This document shows positions 1 through 9,082 of a DNA stretch of 47,377 bases, one piece after another. Origin of the DNA: an uncultured Bacteroidales bacterium. GTDB taxonomy: Bacteria; Bacteroidota; Bacteroidia; Bacteroidales; Paludibacteraceae. The first letter of the stretch is position 1. The number at the start of each line of letters is the position of its first letter. Below the pieces are notes generated by a model that ran no database searches, had not been told where the DNA came from, and saw only the letters and a program-made list of their open reading frames with translations. The stretch covers positions 1-47,377 of the forward strand of contig ONMU01000031.1 of NCBI GenBank assembly GCA_900319035.1, in the 5' to 3' direction. Position numbers and translations under genes: made by a program.

Positions 1-256
1 TGCGAGGAGCCACCTCATGTCCGAAAGCGTCCATTGGATTGCCTTTGCCGCGAAGCTTCATATAGACAATAGTCCACACGCTGAGTGTTAAGCCGCCCAG
101 CATCAACAGTCCTGTCAGGGACGCACGCAATGCGCCGATATGTTCCAATGCCGGCATTCCTGATGCCAGCCACATAATCGTCGGCAAAAGCACTACGAAC
201 ATCACTCCTCCAAGCATATAGCCGGCTATGTTTTGAATGGTCTTTTTCATAATCAT
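1..256 (-). CDS. Isoprenylcysteine carboxyl methyltransferase-like membrane protein, partial (N-terminus)
   Basis: The gene runs off the left edge, so only about the first 85 residues are present. The start is ATG at 256 or the in-frame ATG at 250 (MKKTIQNIAGYMLGG). Two hydrophobic helices are visible (around residues 10-30 and 42-65), followed by GKGNPMDAFGHEVAPR. That loop is the conserved cytoplasmic segment preceding the catalytic part of bacterial isoprenylcysteine carboxyl methyltransferase-like membrane proteins. The SAM-binding C-terminus lies outside the window, so catalytic competence cannot be judged. It begins 18-24 bp after the DUF1349 gene on the same strand and is probably the last visible gene of the PARG-Nudix-DUF1349 operon. 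The substrate in bacteria is usually unknown. Confidence 0.7.
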   Translation of the reverse strand, partial: MIMKKTIQNIAGYMLGGVMFVVLLPTIMWLASGMPALEHIGALRASLTGLLMLGGLTLSVWTIVYMKLRGKGNPMDAFGHEVAPR

Positions 257-273
257 TTTCTTTTAATGCCCTC

Positions 274-951
274 TTACAAACTGTCCGGTTGCTGGCCGTC
301 ATGGGCATGCCATGCACAGGCGGTAATCTTCATATCTGAGAAAAGAGCCGTGAAAGACGAATCTTCTGGCGAACAGGCATAGATACCAAAACAAATCTCT
401 TCGGCTCCTGCGTGCATGTGGCAGATACGCATCTGATTGAAATGCACACCATCGGTGGAGCACTCGATACAGTAATCGTTCTCCCTCCGCGAGAAGCGAT
501 ACCACATAGTCTTCACGTCCGCAGGAATAGCGGTTGTCGCCCAGTCCGAATAGCCGCCGTTGGTGACTACGCTACCAAGGTGTTGGAACTGCTCATTCTC
601 GTATTCGACGGAACCTTTGAGCCAGTTCTCGCTGTCGAGGTACATCACAATACCGCACTGGTCGAACCGATGGTGGCTCTGCGAAAAGTCGGTCTTGACG
701 ACAAACGAAAAGAACCGCTCACTTGTCCTCATCTGCAGAACAGGCGCATTGTCATTTCGGAAATGGTAATACGTCCGTTGCCAGAGATCGGTATGCGGTT
801 TAGTGGTGACGGCAATCACACCGTCTTTCTCTTCTACTCTCGCGGGCTCACGCGTCCACTGCATCTGATTATATATCTGTTCAAACATGATGGCGTACCT
901 GCGAAAGCAGTTTCTCCGCTTCGCGTCGATTATTGCTTCCTCAATTTTCAT
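274..951 (-). CDS. DUF1349 domain protein (concanavalin-like fold)
   Basis: The 225-aa protein reads as a DUF1349 (regulation-of-enolase-1-like, concanavalin-type jelly roll) protein. Typical segments are TDLWQRTYYHFRNDNAP near residue 55, FDQCGIVMYLDSENWLK near 97 and GSVVTNGGYSDWATT near 126. There is no signal peptide, so it is probably cytoplasmic; the ligand is unknown, and the fold suggests carbohydrate or small-molecule binding. The ATG at 951 overlaps the Nudix stop codon (TAATG), which favours translational coupling. Family members, as recalled, begin at the MFEQIYNQMQW equivalent, which would put the start at 888. Either start is plausible. The gene follows PARG and Nudix genes, so a role in nucleotide-sugar or ADP-ribose handling is an inference from context only. 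Confidence 0.8.
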   Translation of the reverse strand: MKIEEAIIDAKRRNCFRRYAIMFEQIYNQMQWTREPARVEEKDGVIAVTTKPHTDLWQRTYYHFRNDNAPVLQMRTSERFFSFVVKTDFSQSHHRFDQCGIVMYLDSENWLKGSVEYENEQFQHLGSVVTNGGYSDWATTAIPADVKTMWYRFSRRENDYCIECSTDGVHFNQMRICHMHAGAEEICFGIYACSPEDSSFTALFSDMKITACAWHAHDGQQPDSL

Positions 952-1409
952 TAGTCAATATTCAATACTTTCTTTGCGTCAACCAATATCTTATCATGGT
1001 CGAAAGCCAAAGGCGGTAACTCATTCAGTGGCCACCATTTGGCTGCAGCGGCATCATCGGCAGCAGTAGCTTCCGGCATGGTAGTCATGGCGGTATAAGC
1101 AGCCGTGATGACACGTCCACGTGGATCACGCTCCACGTCGGAATAGATACCCACCAACTGCATGCCGATCAACACGATACCGGTCTCTTCCTCCAGTTCA
1201 CGCTCGGCACAACGAGCTACCGTCTCATCCATCTCCAGAAACCCGCCTGGAAAAGCCCAATAGCCTTTGTACGGGTCGTTGCCGCGTTGGATAAGTAGCA
1301 CGTACATCTGACCTTCTTTCTCTGCAAAGAGCACAGCATCTGCTGTTACCGAAGCACGCGGATATTGGTAGGCATAAAGCCCATTTTCTGTTAATTTATA
1401 GTCTTTCAT
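951..1409 (-). CDS. Nudix hydrolase, ADP-ribose pyrophosphatase type
   Basis: The 152-aa protein has a complete Nudix box, G-x5-E-x7-REUxEExGU, at about residues 55-77. It reads GFLEMDETVARCAE followed by RELEEETGI, with all metal-binding glutamates present. The N-terminal strand ASVTADAVLF and the GYWAFPGG lead-in are typical of the ADP-ribose/NAD-derivative branch. Length is normal for a single-domain Nudix enzyme. Its ATG overlaps the stop of the upstream PARG-like gene by 4 bp (ATGA), and its own stop overlaps the next start (TAATG), so the three genes are almost certainly co-translated. A PARG neighbour that would release ADP-ribose makes ADP-ribose a likely substrate (cleavage to AMP and ribose 5-phosphate). 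The exact substrate is inferred. Confidence 0.88.
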   Translation of the reverse strand: MKDYKLTENGLYAYQYPRASVTADAVLFAEKEGQMYVLLIQRGNDPYKGYWAFPGGFLEMDETVARCAERELEEETGIVLIGMQLVGIYSDVERDPRGRVITAAYTAMTTMPEATAADDAAAAKWWPLNELPPLAFDHDKILVDAKKVLNID

Positions 1410-2230
1410 GCTCTTATTATCTCCTTAAATGCGCGGTAGTTGCTGTCGTCGTGCGGACGGCAATAGACCGCAAACTCTATCGTCCGGAAATGATGGCTAA
1501 ACTCTGCTAACACATCGTTGTACGCACGTGCCACCACTTGCGGGTCGTTCTGGAAGGCTCCGCAACCAAACGCGCCCAATATTAGCACATCTGCTTCGTT
1601 CTGCGCTGCCACCGTTAAGATACGACGTGCACGTTGCTTGTGCAGTTGGTACAACTCGTCCTTGCTTATCCGTTTGGCATCGCCATCACTCGGATTATAG
1701 GGATTAGCCGGTTGCTCACGCAGGTTCGGCGCAGCACACGTGATAACATCCACCGCAAACGGATCCATCAATGGCCGGTAGTCATCGTCTTTGAGCACTT
1801 GCACGTTGGGCGTGAAGATAATGTCATCGTTATGCAACGGATTGCCGGAATGACGATGCGGCGTGTAGAACCCATCCCACATGGCGCGTGTGTTCAGGCA
1901 GTTGTATAAAGTGGAGCAACGGCACAGACATTCCTCTTGCGCAGACGAACCATGCGTCACACCTCCGCCGGGATTAGTTGCCGAAGCGAAGTTCAGCACG
2001 CACACATGTTGTCCAATGTATTGTGCCGCTGCCTCAAAAGAACGGTTCTTCGTCACAAGGACTTGTGCCTTCTCGTCGAACCTCGGCGACGGAACGGCTA
2101 ATGTTTCCGCTTCGAGAATCAGCTTCTGCGCGGCTATGGATTGCTGCTGCGCTTTGTGCACTTCAAAGTCACCATTGATACGCTCCAACGTATCGTCAAA
2201 AACCGATATAAGATATGCTCTGCGATCCAT
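1406..2230 (-). CDS. TIGR02452 family protein, bacterial-type poly(ADP-ribose) glycohydrolase-like (macrodomain fold)
   Basis: The 274-aa protein carries the PARG signature GGG-x(6-8)-QEE: NPGGGVTHGSSAQEECLCR at about residues 86-104. The two adjacent glutamates correspond to the catalytic pair of bacterial PARGs. Further family segments are the N-terminal helical part with NFASATNPGGG, then DVITCAAPNLR, LILGAFGCGAFQNDP and EFAVYC at the end of the macrodomain. Function by family: removal of ADP-ribose from proteins or polymers in the cytoplasm. It is the promoter-proximal gene of the operon. A TAnnTTTG promoter lies about 30 bp upstream of the ATG, and a Nudix hydrolase able to consume the product overlaps its 3' end. 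Some TIGR02452 proteins are uncharacterised, so true hydrolase activity is inferred from the intact motif. Confidence 0.85.
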   Translation of the reverse strand: MDRRAYLISVFDDTLERINGDFEVHKAQQQSIAAQKLILEAETLAVPSPRFDEKAQVLVTKNRSFEAAAQYIGQHVCVLNFASATNPGGGVTHGSSAQEECLCRCSTLYNCLNTRAMWDGFYTPHRHSGNPLHNDDIIFTPNVQVLKDDDYRPLMDPFAVDVITCAAPNLREQPANPYNPSDGDAKRISKDELYQLHKQRARRILTVAAQNEADVLILGAFGCGAFQNDPQVVARAYNDVLAEFSHHFRTIEFAVYCRPHDDSNYRAFKEIIRA

Positions 2231-2259
2231 GTTTCTGTTTGGTTGCGTCGTTTACGGCG

Positions 2260-2291
2260 CAAAGGTACAAAAAAAATCTGACATACACAAG
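2260..2291 (-). promoter_or_regulatory. Bacteroidetes-type promoter of the PARG-Nudix operon
   Basis: On the minus strand a CTTG box (2291-2288) is followed by exactly 20 nt and then TACCTTTG (2267-2260), matching TTTG-N20-TAnnTTTG. Transcription would start near 2253, about 22 nt before the ATG at 2230. The spacer contains a T8 tract next to the -7 box. Confidence 0.75.
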
Positions 2292-2340
2292 GATTCCACC
2301 CTAAAAACACCCTAAAAAGTGATTATCTACCCCAAAAATT

Positions 2341-2447
2341 GGAAAAGCGCGCAAAAAATCGTGATAATTTATAGGAAAAGCGCGTTAATCTAATTAAAAA
2401 ATCATAGGAAAAGTGCGTTCAAGGACAAAATCGGTCGGAAAAGTATA
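2341..2447. repeat. Degenerate 33-bp phased repeats with a GGAAAAG core
   Basis: GGAAAAGCGCG at 2341 and 2374, GGAAAAGTGCG at 2407 and GGAAAAGTAT at 2437 are spaced 33, 33 and 30 bp. Partly conserved AT-rich text lies between them. They sit about 50-155 bp upstream of the -33 box of the PARG operon promoter. Three short ATACAGAAA copies follow near 2445-2480. No coding potential is seen. Confidence 0.6.
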
Positions 2448-2556
2448 CAGAAAACCATACAGAAACCATACAGAAAAGTAACGGAAAGAAGGCATTTGGA
2501 AATGCAATTCTGCAATGATGCAATAGATGAGCGGGCAATTAGATTGCCAAGTAATG

Positions 2557-2575
2557 GAAAAAAGAAAAACGCGCC
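2557..2575 (-). terminator. Distal arm and U-tract of the same split terminator
   Basis: On the minus strand GGCGCGTT (2575-2568) runs into TTTCTTTTTT. It complements the arm at 4015-4022. It is described separately because the IS lies between the two halves. Confidence 0.75.
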
Positions 2576-2588
2576 CGTGTGTGTAATG

Positions 2589-2622
2589 AACCCCAAAAGT
2601 TGAACACAAAACTTTTGGGGTT
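2589..2622. repeat. Perfect 13-bp stem hairpin overlapping the left IS end
   Basis: AACCCCAAAAGTT (2589-2601) and AACTTTTGGGGTT (2610-2622) form a 13-bp perfect stem with an 8-nt loop. It includes most of the inverted repeat and ends 6 bp before the transposase ATG. Such end hairpins in IS elements can limit read-through expression of transposase from outside; that role is inferred here. Confidence 0.75.
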
Positions 2623-2628
2623 TGTTAT

Positions 2629-3153
2629 ATGTATAAGAAACATTCCATTGAAGAACGGCTGTTAGCTGTAAAAAAATGTTTAGAGGGTTATGCGCCTAAG
2701 GGTGTAGCTAAAGAACTAGGACTAAATGAGCATGATATATCAGAATGGTTGCTTCGTTATAAAATGGAAGGAGTCTTAGGATTGCAAAAACGCCCTATAA
2801 AACATGCTGATTTTGAAGAAAAATGCAAAATTGTTTGCGAATATGCAGAAAAAGGTGTATCTTTGCACCGAGTTTGCGCAAAGTATCATGTTTCTCAAGC
2901 AGCAGTATCCCGCTGGACGCGTATCTACAGACAAGGCGGATATGAGGCTTTGCGCAACATAAAACCGCCAGGAAAAGGTCGTAAAGGTATGGGACGTCCA
3001 AAGAAGAAAGAACCGCAGACAGAGTTAGAGCGTCTGCGCTACGAGAATGAGTATTTGCGTGCAGAGGTTGCATTGCTAAAAAAAGTGAGGGCTTTAGTGG
3101 AAGAAAGAGAGAAGCGTCTACACGAGATTGGGCGCAAGCCATCCAAACATTAA
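2629..3153 (+). CDS. IS3-family transposase OrfA (helix-turn-helix plus leucine zipper)
   Basis: The 174-aa protein has two consecutive helix-turn-helix units: residues 1-50 with KGVAKELGLNEHDISEWL, and 60-105 with VSLHRVCAKYHVSQAAVSRW. A basic linker (GKGRKGMGRPKKKEP) and a heptad-spaced leucine zipper follow at about 128-152 (ELERLRYENEYLRAEVALLKK region). This is the usual DNA-binding and multimerisation half of IS150-group transposases. Alone it normally acts as a repressor of transposition. The A7 slippery run at 3078-3084 inside this gene allows a -1 shift into the orfB frame, giving an OrfAB fusion of about 448 aa. Beyond the slip site the zero frame continues only to 3153. Confidence 0.92.
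   Translation: MYKKHSIEERLLAVKKCLEGYAPKGVAKELGLNEHDISEWLLRYKMEGVLGLQKRPIKHADFEEKCKIVCEYAEKGVSLHRVCAKYHVSQAAVSRWTRIYRQGGYEALRNIKPPGKGRKGMGRPKKKEPQTELERLRYENEYLRAEVALLKKVRALVEEREKRLHEIGRKPSKH
3078..3084 (+). other. Slippery A-AAA-AAA heptamer for -1 programmed frameshifting
   Basis: Seven consecutive A residues sit after the cta codon in orfA. In the orfA frame they read A-AAA-AAA followed by GTG. The -1 frame is open from well upstream through orfB without a stop, and translating it joins the zipper directly to an AIQTLKPEHSLDLLLG segment typical of IS3 OrfAB linkers. No strong downstream stem-loop was recognised. Confidence 0.8.
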
Positions 3154-3194
3154 AGCCCGAACATAGCCTTGATTTACTCCTTGGGATCAAGGGG

Positions 3195-3974
3195 ATGGCT
3201 CGTACTACGTATTATTACAATATCCGTCCGAGAGAGGATAAGTATGCGCAATTACGCAAGGATATAATACGTATATTTAATAAGAATAAAGGGCGTTACG
3301 GATACCGGCGGGTATACCAACAGCTGCGCACGGAAGGCAAAGACATCAACCATAAGACAGTAGCCAAACTGATGGTAGAAATGGGCTTATACGCCCGGAA
3401 ACCTAAGTTGCGTTACCGCTCTTATAAAGGAGAAGTAGGTAAGATTGCACCTAATGTATTACAACGCGATTTTGCTACCGATGCGCCTAATCGCAAGTGG
3501 ACTACTGATGTCTCACAAGTGGATATACGTGGCAAGAAATGTTATATATCGCCTATACTGGATATGTGGAACGGAGAGATTGTTAGCTATGTCATCTCTG
3601 ATCGTCCGGATCTAAAGATGGTAGTGGATATGTTGCAGAAAGCGTTCCGCAAACATCCGCAGACAAATGGTCTAATAATGCACTCGGATCAGGGGTGGCA
3701 CTATCAGCACACGCGCTACCAGTATCTATTGCGTGAACATGGTATTACGCAAAGTATGTCCCGTAAGGGGAATTGCTTGGATAACTCAGTTATGGAGAAC
3801 TTTTTCGGCCTGATGAAGAACGAGCTGCTCTATAACAATAGATGGGAGAGTATCGATGACTTTAAGGCAGCGTTAAAAGAGTATATCCGGTACTACAACA
3901 ACGAACGTATCAAACTAAAACTGAAAATGAGCCCGGTACAATACCGAACTCACTTTCAAAATCAAGTCAAATAG
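3195..3974 (+). CDS. IS3-family transposase OrfB, DDE (rve) catalytic part
   Basis: The 259-aa open part carries HTH_21-like text (NKNKGRYGYRRVYQQL), then the rve integrase core. The catalytic triad is complete: D105 (WTTDVSQ), D165 (MHSDQGW) and E201 (SVMENFF), with the D(35)E spacing of the IS3 family. The C-terminal YYNNERIKLKLKMSPVQYR is also canonical. The frame is open upstream to the slippery site, so the functional product is most likely the OrfAB fusion starting at 2629 rather than a protein started at the ATG given here. There is no sign of decay. Confidence 0.92.
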   Translation: MARTTYYYNIRPREDKYAQLRKDIIRIFNKNKGRYGYRRVYQQLRTEGKDINHKTVAKLMVEMGLYARKPKLRYRSYKGEVGKIAPNVLQRDFATDAPNRKWTTDVSQVDIRGKKCYISPILDMWNGEIVSYVISDRPDLKMVVDMLQKAFRKHPQTNGLIMHSDQGWHYQHTRYQYLLREHGITQSMSRKGNCLDNSVMENFFGLMKNELLYNNRWESIDDFKAALKEYIRYYNNERIKLKLKMSPVQYRTHFQNQVK

Positions 3975-4014
3975 ATTTAATAATCCGTCCAACTTTTTGG
4001 GGTCACCTCAGTGA

Positions 4015-4022
4015 GGCGCGTT
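4015..4022 (-). terminator. Proximal arm of the R-M operon terminator, split by the IS
   Basis: On the minus strand AACGCGCC begins 3 nt after the stop codon of the large R-M gene. Its partner arm GGCGCGTT and the U-tract lie at 2575-2557, on the other side of the IS. Removing the IS and one GTG duplication rebuilds a perfect 8-bp stem with a 5-7 nt loop followed by T5CT6. The hairpin is now broken by 1.4 kb. Confidence 0.8.
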
Positions 4023-4025
4023 GGA

Positions 4026-7000
4026 TTATTCCATCGGTTTGATCAGAGATTCAATGTATTGTTGTTCCTCTTTTGAAATGTTATATTTAGCGTAAAGCTT
4101 TTCGTCAGTCCATGACTCGTGGAAATCTTGGATAGGAACAAACTGGAAGGAATCACGAGATATGTGCATAGACGACAACGTTAGTTGAATCAAGAATCGT
4201 GTTAGGCGACATTTGATGTACGAACGTAGGTTCTCTGCTTCCTCTTGCGTTGCAAATGCTCCGAGCACTAAATATGTAGCGGTTGTTACTTCTCCAGGAT
4301 TACTGATGGATATTTTGGTTGTTACATTACTCTTACCGTCGGCAGCATTATTTACTCCAGCACGATCCGGATTTAACTGACCTATCCAAACTTTATATTG
4401 ATCAATAAGTGCCTCATTTGAATGTATCGTTGCACGATCAATATAGCTCTTACCTTGACTACTAATCAATGCTACAGAATTTTCAAATTCAGATTCTTTA
4501 CCTCTAACGGATGTCGGAAGTCCGAACGGAGAGATAGGTAATACCATTTGAGACATCATTTGCGGATTACCTAATTTATGGAGAATATCAATACCTCTAT
4601 TATCACGAACGAAAATAGGATACTCATTCAATCGGCGCACCTCTGTTATACGTTGCCCATTGATTGAGTTAACAACTTCACAACCTTGCGGATTATTATA
4701 TGTTTCATCGCACAAGAAATAGCAAATACCACCTGCTATATCTACCGTTGGGAAGCAGTCACGACTCTTTGGGAAATCTACAAGATATGCCAAATGTTCA
4801 TCGCTAAGCATAGCCGTTCTAAAGTCATTAAGACCGATACCACCTGCATACCAACGCGCCGGTATAATAAGCGACAGATATGAAGGATGCAGACTCTTTG
4901 CTGCATTCACAAACTCGCGATATACAGGCACAGCTTGTATACCATCAGCATTTGTACTCTCCTGATAAGGAGGATTACCTACAACTGCATTAAATCTTAT
5001 CATAGTTCTTTGATTGTATTCGTAAAATAATTTCAGATAACCGACTCGTTCAACAAACTCCTCCGGATTGTCACGAAGGGTTTCATTAAGCTTCTTGTAG
5101 CAAGCAATATGATGCGGTGCATCTTCTCTGAATGCGCCAAGTGTTCGTTTCGTAATGCTTGCTGCCATGTTTGTGCGGCATACCACATAGATATTCTCAT
5201 CTACGGTCTGGTTCCAAAGACGAGTCTTTTCTTCCGCACTAAGTACATGCTCTCCGAACATACTTTGTTCCAATGCCGCTAAACGGCTGCGATATGTACT
5301 ATATGCTACGTACAGTGGATACAAACCCGTTTTCGAGTTGATCTCCAATATGCGGGTTGTCGGATTAAATACATTAGCGGTTACCTCGCCACGATTAACC
5401 AAACGCGGTTCTTCCAACAGACCTTCATTGACGTGTGTTTCGTCGAAGAAATCATAACCACCAAGCGTATCTGACATGTGCATGTTAACAACTCGCCACG
5501 GTGTCAGTACGGTCTCTTTATCAGGATTATGGAAATAAGAGAATATCTGCGCTATCTTCTTTGCGCGTTCCGTTGGTTCGAGACGATCTGCGGCTGCTGC
5601 CAAGTCGCGAATGCGACGACCTGCAGCGCGGAACACATCTCCATCGTAGAAACGACTAATCGCATTAAAATCTTTCTGTGTCACGCCCTTTGGCATAAAC
5701 TCTTCCCAAGATTTCTTATCTACCTTAGCCGTTAGATTGTCCGGCATCAAGTCTTCGTTACTCTCTAATTCCGCACCGTAAATCAACAACGGAATACGGA
5801 TGGATATACCATGCAGAATGTTGATCGCCGCACGACGATTTTGTTGCTTGCGACGTCTCTCGCGTTCTTCAGGAGTAAGCTGTGATTCGTCCTTCTTAAC
5901 GCGTTTCTTCTTTTCACCTTTCCGCTTACCCATGTTGGACTCAGACAGAACTAAGGTGTCATCTCCTCTTGATTTTTGGGTTGTTCCCACACTATCTTTC
6001 AAGTGCTCTAATAGCGCAATAGCCGTATCGTCGATCTCAAACAACTGGTCATTATACAGGCGCGAATCTTCAAAGCCACGACGCACGACACGATCAATCT
6101 GGATACGCTTGAGTGTTTCAAGCATGTTGGTTGTGTCATACGGTGTCATTCGAGTGCCATTGTAACCGATTACCGGACAGAAGTTCAAGAAGTGATCCAA
6201 GTAATCACGTTGACCTTGGTCGGTGTTCTTTGTATTCATATGCGCTGCTTGTGATATTACTTGCAATGTTCGGTCTGGCGCGAAATCAAACACATAGCAA
6301 TCTTCCTTTCTCTTGCCATCCGGTGTCTTGTACGGACTTTGTACGCGGAAGATGGTTTGCATATATGCCTTTGCATCAGTCTTTACACTACCTTTTAACA
6401 TCAGTACGCCGGTCCATTCCGGAACCGTAACACCCGTAGTCAGACGGTTACACGAAAGCGTGATCGTATGCGACTGACGCGCATCCGGTCCAATTGCGTT
6501 ACGTAGTTTCTGTAATGATTCTTCACGACTATCATCATCGTCACCTTCTCCGGCAACATTAACGACCGTGAAATCTTTGAATGCGGGTGTTTCTTTAATT
6601 AGAGCAGATAGTGCCTTTGCTGCCGGAACACCTGGAACCATCCAAAGTGTATGACGGAAGAAATCGCAGTATTCCTCGGTTGCATATGGATAGTGATTGT
6701 CTTCGTCCGGCATAGATATTAATGTCAAGAACCTGCGAACATCTTGCTCGTGAACGAAACGACCGCGATGATCCAATGATGGAAGCACCTTGTGATCTTT
6801 GTCTAAATCTCCAGTCCATACGCGGAAGAACTCAGAGAACGAGAATGCTTGATCCTCCAACGTCTGCTCATTGATAGCGTAGTTCAGATTTAGCAAATCA
6901 CCGAGATCAAAGGTATAGATATTCATCTTGGGCAGATCAGCATACGGGTTTGGTGCTCCAAAGTGCTCAATTTCCCAATTCCGTTTTGCCTCTTGCTCCA

Positions 7001-8048
7001 TGATATAGTCCCACGTGAAGACTTGTTCATCCGAGAATTGCTCCTTGATATTAAATGGTGTGCCCGAAAGACTAAGCACGTAGGTATTTTCTTTAATCAA
7101 CTTACTAAACAGCGATTGTGCCAAATCGGTTTGTGTACCTTCGTGTGCCTCATCAATAATGATACAATCCCATTGCGTGTTCAGTAGAGCCGTTTTCTCC
7201 TCTATGTCACCCGTAAGCACTTTCTCTCGCAGGTATTGGATGGACGAGAAATAGATATAATGACCATTGGGGTTAGAGAATAATCCACCACCGATAAAAT
7301 CCTCTAAAGCACCATAGGAATCACCATTTTCTTTGCTACCGTAACGATAATCTTGTGTATCAAAGAAGATCTTCTCGAAATCTTTGAACCAACCATCATC
7401 TACAACAGGTCGGTGTGTACTGATAAGCGTGCGTTTGAATGCCATTTCACGCACTACTTGTAATGCGGTTAATGTCTTACCAAAACGCATCTTTGCATCC
7501 CACAACATTTCGCGTGTATCCGGTTTCTTGCGGAACACTTTCAGTGTGCGTTGGATGGCTTCTATTTGCTCCGGTCTGAACTCAATCTTTTTGCGTTGTT
7601 CAGCAATCGGTTGCTCGTTTCCTTGGATAGACTGCTTGCCCTCCTTAACTGCTTGAATGGCGGCCTTTATAGTAGCCACATCCACTTTGAACCATTCAGC
7701 GCCGTTCGTCTTGGCTTCTTCGAACTTCACTCTCGGATAACCAGAACGCTCCAGTACTTTATGTACGTCGTAATCGCGGAAAGATTTTACCTCTCCGTTC
7801 TTAATGTACAGCGTCAGTTCTACATAGTCCACATCGAAATCCAGCGATAGTTCGTTGGAATAATTCTTTATGCGCTTTTCCGCAGCAACTTTCATTTCCG
7901 GACTATTTGGAGCAAGCGCAGCACCATAACCATCTTCCAATTTGGTATCTCCAATTTTCAGATACCCCGGATGCAGTTTATCCACACGCAATGCGTAGAT
8001 AAGCTTTGGCTCTGGTGCCTGTAGTGGTGATTTATACGTGTTTCCCAT
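4026..8048 (-). CDS. Fused restriction-modification protein: T5orf172/GIY-YIG-like, SF2 helicase, Eco57I-type adenine methylase
   Basis: This 1340-aa protein has three parts. Residues 15-150 resemble a T5orf172 (GIY-YIG-like) domain: IYALRVDKLHPGYLKIGDT, DVHKVLERSGYP, GAEWFKVD. Residues 160-560 form an SF2 ATPase with MRFGKT (Walker A, 187-192), DEAHEG (299-304) and SLSGTPF. From about residue 880 comes an N6-adenine methylase of Eco57I type with VVGNPPYQES (NPPY 1025-1028). Its motif I position reads LEINSKTG (about 901-908), not the usual F-x-G-x-G. A target-recognition region probably follows. The order nuclease-translocase-methylase-TRD recalls single-chain type ISP/IIG enzymes, but with a GIY-YIG-like rather than Mrr-like N-terminus. 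It lies 8 bp downstream of its partner gene. Cleavage activity is inferred. Confidence 0.82.
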   Translation of the reverse strand: MGNTYKSPLQAPEPKLIYALRVDKLHPGYLKIGDTKLEDGYGAALAPNSPEMKVAAEKRIKNYSNELSLDFDVDYVELTLYIKNGEVKSFRDYDVHKVLERSGYPRVKFEEAKTNGAEWFKVDVATIKAAIQAVKEGKQSIQGNEQPIAEQRKKIEFRPEQIEAIQRTLKVFRKKPDTREMLWDAKMRFGKTLTALQVVREMAFKRTLISTHRPVVDDGWFKDFEKIFFDTQDYRYGSKENGDSYGALEDFIGGGLFSNPNGHYIYFSSIQYLREKVLTGDIEEKTALLNTQWDCIIIDEAHEGTQTDLAQSLFSKLIKENTYVLSLSGTPFNIKEQFSDEQVFTWDYIMEQEAKRNWEIEHFGAPNPYADLPKMNIYTFDLGDLLNLNYAINEQTLEDQAFSFSEFFRVWTGDLDKDHKVLPSLDHRGRFVHEQDVRRFLTLISMPDEDNHYPYATEEYCDFFRHTLWMVPGVPAAKALSALIKETPAFKDFTVVNVAGEGDDDDSREESLQKLRNAIGPDARQSHTITLSCNRLTTGVTVPEWTGVLMLKGSVKTDAKAYMQTIFRVQSPYKTPDGKRKEDCYVFDFAPDRTLQVISQAAHMNTKNTDQGQRDYLDHFLNFCPVIGYNGTRMTPYDTTNMLETLKRIQIDRVVRRGFEDSRLYNDQLFEIDDTAIALLEHLKDSVGTTQKSRGDDTLVLSESNMGKRKGEKKKRVKKDESQLTPEERERRRKQQNRRAAINILHGISIRIPLLIYGAELESNEDLMPDNLTAKVDKKSWEEFMPKGVTQKDFNAISRFYDGDVFRAAGRRIRDLAAAADRLEPTERAKKIAQIFSYFHNPDKETVLTPWRVVNMHMSDTLGGYDFFDETHVNEGLLEEPRLVNRGEVTANVFNPTTRILEINSKTGLYPLYVAYSTYRSRLAALEQSMFGEHVLSAEEKTRLWNQTVDENIYVVCRTNMAASITKRTLGAFREDAPHHIACYKKLNETLRDNPEEFVERVGYLKLFYEYNQRTMIRFNAVVGNPPYQESTNADGIQAVPVYREFVNAAKSLHPSYLSLIIPARWYAGGIGLNDFRTAMLSDEHLAYLVDFPKSRDCFPTVDIAGGICYFLCDETYNNPQGCEVVNSINGQRITEVRRLNEYPIFVRDNRGIDILHKLGNPQMMSQMVLPISPFGLPTSVRGKESEFENSVALISSQGKSYIDRATIHSNEALIDQYKVWIGQLNPDRAGVNNAADGKSNVTTKISISNPGEVTTATYLVLGAFATQEEAENLRSYIKCRLTRFLIQLTLSSMHISRDSFQFVPIQDFHESWTDEKLYAKYNISKEEQQYIESLIKPME

Positions 8049-8056
8049 ATCAATGG

Positions 8057-9082
8057 TTATTTAATTTCAATAAACTTGTGCTCTTTCTTATTGAGCATGC
8101 CCTTCTTCTGCCATTCTGCTATTTTGGCATAGATTTTCTGTCCTTGAATTGGCGACTTTACTTCACGTACTCTAACACCCATTTCCGGGAAAAGTGATTG
8201 TTCGGTCGTTTGTTTCTCCAGTTCTCCACTTAATGGCAGTGTCTTATTCATGCCATCCATTTGCCACAAGTTCCATGAGATTAGATATGCAATGGACGGA
8301 TATGTCTTGGTTAATTTTGGGATAGGTTTCTTCAGTACGTTTGTGAAGAAGTCCTCGTAGAAATCTATGAACGTATAGAAAACGGCTTCACGTGCAAGTA
8401 GCAGGTTATCGCCTTGCCACTCGTATCCGTAAATGGATTTCAATGCGCATTCAGCCCAGAAAAGCCATTCCTGTTTGTTGGCTACGTTTTCATTTACGAT
8501 ACGGAGTTTGCGATCAAGCAGTCCTACGCGCATGTAGAGGTCGTCAATCGGTTCGCCTGTTGTGGTGTCGTAACGGCTAACCAGATATGGCGCTTCTCCG
8601 CAAGCTATTTCGAGACGCTTATCCCATACGTAGTCCTGCCAAGTCTTTCCTTCGGGGAAGGTTATCTTTTCGCGAATCGGTGTCCATGTATGATCCTCGT
8701 TCTCGTGATTGAAAACATCCTTGCGACCAAACCATGCTTCGTCGATAAGATTATTTTGCGCGTTGCATACCCATGAAGGCGTAAACACTTCGGCTTTCTC
8801 TCTTGTGCGTTTCTCCTGTTCCTCTTTGCTCTTGACGGCACGTGGACGCACCAATTTCTTGTTCTTGCCGGTTATGCTTGCAATTTGAATCTCGTCAAAG
8901 AAGCCAAATCCCTCGCCGCGCGATTCATACATATCGGTTGCCCAATAGATGTGGTGGTGATGCTCTTTGCCGTTCTCGTCATAGAATTTCGGGCGAGAAT
9001 GATCCCAAAGCAAACGCTCCAGCACGTTGGGCGCCAGTTTTAGGATTTCTTCTTCGAGTATGTCTATACGTTGGTTAGCCAT
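8057..9082 (-). CDS. DNA methyltransferase-like restriction subunit (subunit M) partnering the large R-M protein
   Basis: The 341-aa protein starts at MANQRIDILEEEILKLAPN (ATG 9082). An upstream in-frame ATG at 9151 would add 23 residues of poor character and is not favoured. It contains AEVFTPSWVCN (97-107), matching the N-terminal motif X region of N6-adenine methylases (xFTPxxV). It also has LEIACGEAPYL (157-167), matching a DPACGxGxFL-type AdoMet-binding motif I with alanine replacing the second glycine. No NPPY is present. In related Bacteroidales this gene type sits directly before a large helicase-methylase protein (established by memory, not searched). It probably supplies AdoMet-binding or specificity function to the complex. 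Confidence 0.72.
   Translation of the reverse strand: MANQRIDILEEEILKLAPNVLERLLWDHSRPKFYDENGKEHHHHIYWATDMYESRGEGFGFFDEIQIASITGKNKKLVRPRAVKSKEEQEKRTREKAEVFTPSWVCNAQNNLIDEAWFGRKDVFNHENEDHTWTPIREKITFPEGKTWQDYVWDKRLEIACGEAPYLVSRYDTTTGEPIDDLYMRVGLLDRKLRIVNENVANKQEWLFWAECALKSIYGYEWQGDNLLLAREAVFYTFIDFYEDFFTNVLKKPIPKLTKTYPSIAYLISWNLWQMDGMNKTLPLSGELEKQTTEQSLFPEMGVRVREVKSPIQGQKIYAKIAEWQKKGMLNKKEHKFIEIK

Follow-up and report, generated by a model that had tools for sequence, protein, structure and literature searches.

The stretch analysed here, 47,377 nucleotides (nt) of contig ONMU01000031.1 from an uncultured bacterium of the Bacteroidales (family Paludibacteraceae; hereafter referred to as the window), contains a restriction–modification (R-M) gene and, past its 3′ end, an insertion sequence (IS) of the IS3 family. 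The initial annotation, made from the letters of the window, proposed that this element had entered the loop of the intrinsic terminator of the R-M gene and may target terminator loops. The span considered there, 2557–4022, includes both terminator halves, and the IS proper occupies 2582–4010. Here we report that terminator-loop targeting is a property of most copies of the clade to which the element belongs, and that conserved, inward-facing hairpins lie at the element ends.

The element and the split terminator

The element has TG...CA termini (TGTAATGAACCCC... and ...GGGGTCACCTCA), carries the inverted repeats TGTAATGAACCCCAAAAGTTG (left, IRL) and TGAGGTGACCCCAAAAAGTTG (right, IRR), and is flanked by a GTG duplication, in keeping with the TG...CA ends and 3–4-bp duplications of the IS3 family. 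Its orfB lies in the −1 frame relative to orfA, with an A7G run at 3078–3085, and OrfB scores 302.9 bits against the NCBIfam IS3 transposase model NF033516 (cut-off 160). On its transposase, termini and duplication we assign the element to the IS3 family. Membership of the IS150 group is likely, OrfB being 50% identical to that of Escherichia coli IS150 and the ends being similar, in a comparison with IS150 as its only subgroup type element. The source genome holds a single full copy and nine further matches of 29 to 67 nt; since this genome is a draft of 97 contigs, copies may be missing from the count.

The two terminator arms lie on opposite sides of the IS and, once joined, form an intrinsic terminator with an 8-bp stem (Table 1). 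The joined flanks score 22 in the hairpin test described below, in which a score of at least 20 is reached at 0.7% of 2,812 random flank positions. The pieces on which the initial annotation had built its proposal (both arms, the U-tract, the GTG duplication and the 3-nt distance from the stop codon) are all in place. A search with the 3′ part of the R-M gene in 178 genomes of the genus gave three matches, the source genome included, and in one of these genomes, G133, the match covers the very end of the gene. At this locus (L123) an uninterrupted hairpin, with its loop and T-tract, lies at the same distance from the stop codon of the same gene; it contains one G more than the window's hairpin, and the two sequences diverge about 15 nt past the stem. 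The L123 site folds with a calculated energy of −17.6 kcal/mol (z = −4.3) and is followed by TTTTTCTTTT, and its G+C stem, short loop and T-tract past the gene end are those expected of an intrinsic terminator, as which we class it from sequence. The relative in this way keeps, uninterrupted and at the predicted place, a counterpart of the terminator that removal of the IS rebuilds. An empty-site allele without the rebuilt terminator, one of two outcomes that the initial annotation had named as counting against its proposal, is not what this locus shows. A search with the left flank matched in part in 51 of the 178 genomes and was not used for the empty site. No known RNA family was found in positions 1–9000 of the window at an E value of 0.5.

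Table 1. Features of the element and of the terminator that it divides (positions in the window).
Feature	Position	Strand	Remarks
IS150-like IS3 element	2582..4010	+	1429 bp; from profile matches and homology of relatives' ends
Left terminal inverted repeat	2582..2605	+	
Right terminal inverted repeat	3987..4010	-	
GTG target-site duplication, left copy	2579..2581		IS ends set by homology to relatives' ends
GTG target-site duplication, right copy	4011..4013		
orfA	2629..3153	+	174 amino acids; two helix-turn-helix regions
orfB	3195..3974	+	DDE (rve) transposase part; NF033516 3.6e-90; PF00665
A7G run	3078..3085	+	Run from sequence; by analogy with the IS3 family, likely place of -1 frameshifting from orfA into orfB
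Left-end hairpin, T-rich 3′ side	2582..2629	+	IRL pairs with an inverted inner copy ending at the orfA start codon; putative inward terminator that may also block translation
Right-end antisense hairpin	3921..3959	-	In the 3′ end of orfB, then TTTTAGTTT; candidate inward terminator
R-M gene	4026..8048	-	ResIII and Eco57I-type methylase domains; terminator split by the IS
Proximal terminator arm AACGCGCC	4015..4022	-	3 nt after the R-M stop codon (4028-4026)
Distal terminator half	2557..2575	-	Arm GGCGCGTT (2575-2568) followed by a T-rich tract; order kept in the empty site

The part of orfA containing TATCTTTGCACCG (window 2803–2878) has short matches at nine other places in the genome; this region resembles the Bacteroidetes promoter −7 box, and is perhaps an internal promoter. 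Beyond the distal terminator half, three spaced copies of GGAAAAG(C/T)GCG(C/T) lie at 2341–2412, upstream of the PARG operon, and the segment 2182–2361, around the 5′ side of the PARG gene, has short matches at many places in genomes of the genus, as an interspersed repeat or a common leader would.

Insertion sites of related elements

Relatives were collected from the 178 genomes of the genus (24 genomes at an E value of 1e-50, the source genome included) and, as the 80 best of 576, from a contig collection. Their ends were located by end motifs; an inverted-repeat search had caught host hairpins. Both ends were found for 77 elements, 22 of which were dropped for flanks shorter than 25 nt, and the remaining 55 collapsed to 46 distinct sites. 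The flanks of each site were joined and scored for a hairpin whose loop coincides with the point of insertion, a strict score of at least 16 counting as a hairpin.

The joined flanks form such a hairpin at 31 of the 46 sites, as against 3.2% of 2,812 random positions in the same flanks, 7.9% of 2,000 swapped flanks and 4.0% of 7,764 positions 6–60 nt past stop codons. A chance hairpin at one site is ruled out by these random, swapped and 3′-end controls together with the empty site in G133. All five distinct sites of elements with an OrfB at least 92% identical to that in the window (the window included) score at least 22. Duplications of 3–5 nt flank the element at 31 of the 46 sites and occur in 60 of 2,070 swapped flanks. 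When loops of up to 40 nt were allowed and a score of at least 20 was required, hairpins were found at 26 of the 31 duplicated sites and 7 of the 15 without duplication, compared with 101 of 1,385 random positions and 141 of 1,000 swapped flanks; three sites (L107, L111 and L118) fall below 16 strictly, yet form strong hairpins once longer loops are allowed (scores of 35 to 37.5).

The insertion is centred on the hairpin. At the 24 sites with both a hairpin and a duplication, the duplication centre lies on average −0.04 nt from the dyad centre (standard deviation 1.35 nt). Aligned on the insertion, the 46 sites are A-rich on the left and T-rich on the right, and the duplication mostly has A or T at its centre; beyond this they hold little sequence information, and the stems differ between copies. 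T-runs of at least four lie on the right at 67% and A-runs on the left at 59% of the sites (background 11–12%), and runs on the wrong side occur at 13% and 7%. These A- and T-tracts accompany 26 of the 31 hairpin sites, compared with 130 of 766 background hairpins overall and 48 of the 113 outside long open reading frames. By this last comparison, the target is a terminator more often than hairpins in general would predict, although the selective loss of insertions into genes has to be allowed for. Moreover, since insertion occurs at the dyad centre and the sites share little beyond the composition of a terminator, the shape or the dyad seems to be what is read. A fixed orientation relative to the T-tract was also considered; the T-tract is longer on the right at 18 of 34 sites and the A-tract longer on the left at 8, with 8 tied, giving no firm bias. 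The stop codon of a long open reading frame is directed at the site from at most 150 nt away at 30 of 34 hairpin sites, a count with no background rate alongside.

The same kind of site is occupied by most relatives examined, in Bacteroidales and Fibrobacter and in single cases in Treponema and Priestia. Of the Fibrobacter copies among the 46 sites, L074, L097 and L117 score at least 16, and L116 stays below. More distant elements of Treponema (L192 and L193), Priestia (L204 and L206), Cytobacillus (L207) and Bacillaceae (L201) have OrfB identities of 52–57%. One copy in Treponema saccharophilum scores 32.5 (L193) and its other copy 8 (L192); Priestia L206 scores 38.5, Cytobacillus L207 scores 16, and Priestia L204 scores 12 and is by eye a terminator with a longer loop. 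Priestia L205 appears rearranged, and the element ends were not found for Priestia L203. In a sister group within the genus of the window (OrfB 59–60% identical), the sites score 4, 17, 12 and 6.5. Other IS3 subgroups of the genus, taken as a negative control, yielded seven scorable elements, most of the 20 stretches being without a duplication or clear ends. Two side observations concern still more distant IS3 elements: two copies of one in Priestia megaterium (L194, near 1039–1920 and 6368–7249; 42% OrfB identity) lie by eye in terminator-like hairpins, the one copy scored giving 7.5, and another (L165, 26% OrfB identity) lies inside a long-loop hairpin that scores 22 with loops of up to 18 nt and 7.5 with loops of up to 10.

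Some relatives occupy a recurring palindrome, TTTCGAGG-GGGA...CCTCGAA. The sites L058, L060 and L064 match the left part of this palindrome with at most one mismatch, and L048–L050, L160 and L028 resemble it by eye. An exact pattern search found it at nine places in 6 of 12 chosen genomes of the genus (the source genome included), and the reversed control gave no match. An IS occupies at least three of these places; six others are free copies, which fold into a long hairpin. Two users of this repeat, which resembles a repetitive extragenic palindromic (REP) sequence, were counted in the 46 sites (L048, score 14, and L049, score 16), so the hairpin sites are not terminators without exception. 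The REP-like structured repeat, of the form TTTCGAGGTGGGA-variable hairpin-TGTCGGTGCCCTCGA, occurs in the genus of the window (L208, L209, L212, L213, L214 and L215, at position 1500 of the strand shown) and serves some relatives of the IS as a target; no Rfam match was found for it in L208, L209 and L212–L214, the loci searched.

Hairpins at the element ends

In the window, the left-end hairpin folds with −26.1 kcal/mol (z = −6.3) and the right-end hairpin with −23.4 kcal/mol (z = −8.0), and the two score 33 and 38, respectively. Among the loci L041–L120 for which the relevant end was found, counted without collapsing to distinct sites, the terminator-like form of the left end (score of at least 16) is present in 51 of 63 relatives and 5 of 721 internal windows, and the right-end antisense hairpin with its T-rich tail in 73 of 77 relatives and 49 of 721 internal windows. 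Across 54 distinct left ends, 768 of 1,079 cells pair, the core pair 14–35 being G-C in 25 and A-U in 14. Set against synonymous shuffles, 67 of the 70 distinct orfB tails have a right-end hairpin stronger than that of at least 95% of the shuffled versions, which goes beyond codon constraint; the failures are L058, L060 and L064, which, like the other REP-like users L048–L050, have a different, shorter left-end hairpin.

The sister group has ends that are all weak compared with those in the window (left 7, 15, 7 and 10; right 14, 12, 14 and 16), and three further IS3 elements from the genus (L165, L174 and L184) reach at most 13 at either end. Strong right-end hairpins (30 to 37) are common to IS150 and the Treponema, Cytobacillus and Priestia (L204 and L206) elements, and Bacillaceae L201 has none (score 10); among all of these, the left-end hairpin was found in Cytobacillus only (27).

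The initial annotation had suggested that read-through from the R-M gene would reach the IS and the PARG region as a result of the insertion. This part gained no support: the conserved antisense terminator-like hairpin at 3959–3921 faces R-M transcription 67 nt past the stop codon. Because such transcription would meet this hairpin soon after entering the IS, the read-through expected there is unlikely.

Target recognition and its implications

From these comparisons, we consider it highly probable that an IS150-like IS3 transposase inserts at the dyad centre of intrinsic terminators, probably by recognizing their shape; the element may bring inward-facing terminators of its own at its ends. 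The transposase would read the inverted repeat, its G+C core and the A- and T-tracts, perhaps as an extruded cruciform, rather than a sequence. Since hairpins are conserved at both ends, we infer self-insulation and terminator replacement. The end hairpins, as candidate terminators, would stop transcription entering from either side and so shield the IS, and the left-end hairpin may in addition hide the orfA start from read-through transcripts. In either orientation, the end terminators would take the place of the destroyed host terminator, making insertion nearly neutral for the host.

Several observations weigh against this reading. In the strict test 15 of the 46 sites score below 16, and 15 lack a duplication; among the 31 duplicated sites, five score below 14 strictly and five below 20 even with long loops. 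Tracts are absent from 5 of the 31 hairpin sites, and one subclade occupies the REP-like repeat rather than terminators. Further afield, the sites of Bacillaceae L201 (score 7) and Priestia L202 (by eye) form no short-loop hairpin, the single K-12 site of E. coli IS150 shows none (score 7) although this element carries the right-end one, and the sister-group control reaches 16 at one of four sites. Finally, the end hairpins were counted in elements that are related to one another, which leaves the counts non-independent. The initial annotation had named copies at hairpin-free sites as what would count against terminator targeting. Here the outcome is mixed but favourable, with 31 of 46 sites in hairpins on one side and, on the other, 12 of 46 below 14 strictly and a subclade that prefers a different palindrome; the proposal that the element targets terminator loops is itself strongly supported by the other copies, their controls and the empty site.

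The stop codons directed at 30 of the 34 hairpin sites would fit an element that inserts with low specificity and survives only in non-coding gene ends, hence in terminators. However, ordinary positions 6–60 nt past stop codons reach the hairpin threshold in only 4.0% of cases, as against 31 of 46 sites, the insertion point is centred on the dyad, and the sister group in the same genus, although a small control, reaches 16 at one site in four, so that we regard survivorship as very improbable. Full terminators, with dyad and tract, are enriched relative to other hairpins in non-coding DNA (26 of 31 compared with 48 of 113), and this would also arise if insertion were guided by transcription, at places where a pausing or terminating RNA polymerase leaves single-stranded DNA or an RNA hairpin exposed, the DNA dyad itself going unrecognized. 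We think this unlikely in view of the centring on the dyad, the lack of a firm orientation bias to the T-tract, the five hairpin sites without tracts and, within the same family, the REP palindromes targeted by IS1397 and ISKpn1 (PMC1525189).

Recognition of a REP-like sequence family that merely resembles terminators seems the least probable of all: some relatives do occupy a REP-like repeat, and IS1397 and ISKpn1 are REP-specific (PMC1525189), but the aligned sites hold little sequence information beyond their A- and T-rich sides and the A or T in the duplication, and the stems vary among copies.

Several known mobile elements come close to this system. IS1397 and ISKpn1 belong to the IS150 group, and IS1272 belongs to the IS1182 family. 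Like the window element, IS1397 and ISKpn1 are IS3-family elements; they insert into REP palindromes, a specificity ascribed to the transposase (PMC1525189). Theirs is one family of REP sequences, or palindromic units (PU), of their host, whereas the window element and its relatives hit intrinsic terminators that vary in sequence and belong to hosts of several phyla. The REP-like target of some relatives parallels the REP targets of IS1397 and ISKpn1. Insertion into a REP/PU repeat does not describe the clade as a whole, as there is no shared target sequence and the REP-like repeat is used by some relatives only. E. coli IS150 shares the OrfB similarity, the ends and the right-end antisense hairpin with the window element, but differs in its hairpin-free K-12 site and in that no terminator-like left-end hairpin was found. 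IS1272 targets inverted repeats of differing sequence, with some older copies in sites without inverted repeats (PMC5678879). It replaces the stem-loop without target duplication; the window element, of another family, splits the stem-loop, with a GTG duplication present and both stem arms kept. Group IIC introns choose insertion sites via Rho-independent terminators (PMC3522654, which cites Robart 2007). They are retroelements that insert downstream of the terminator, whereas here a DDE transposase splits the loop: the same niche, by other chemistry. Our literature search turned up no terminator-targeting member of the IS3 family, although an earlier mention is possible.

In our judgement the element is a variant of the IS3 elements that target palindromes, such as IS1397; it is directed at terminators and probably insulates itself. 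A wider proposal, which in our estimate could equally well prove right or wrong, is that a cross-phylum IS150-like clade uses terminators as a universal safe harbour recognized by shape, swapping the host terminator for two inward-facing ones of its own that keep both the gene ends and the silence of the IS, and that REP-targeting elements such as IS1397 are specialized offshoots of an ancestral taste for hairpins. Because terminators are common in bacteria, sequence-diverse and intergenic, a transposase that reads them would need no host-specific site and would do little harm. A single loop-centred readout would make shape-based target choice by a DDE transposase directly testable. If the reading is correct, terminator recognition would help to explain the spread of such elements between phyla, and gene ends beside them would rely on terminators supplied by the IS.
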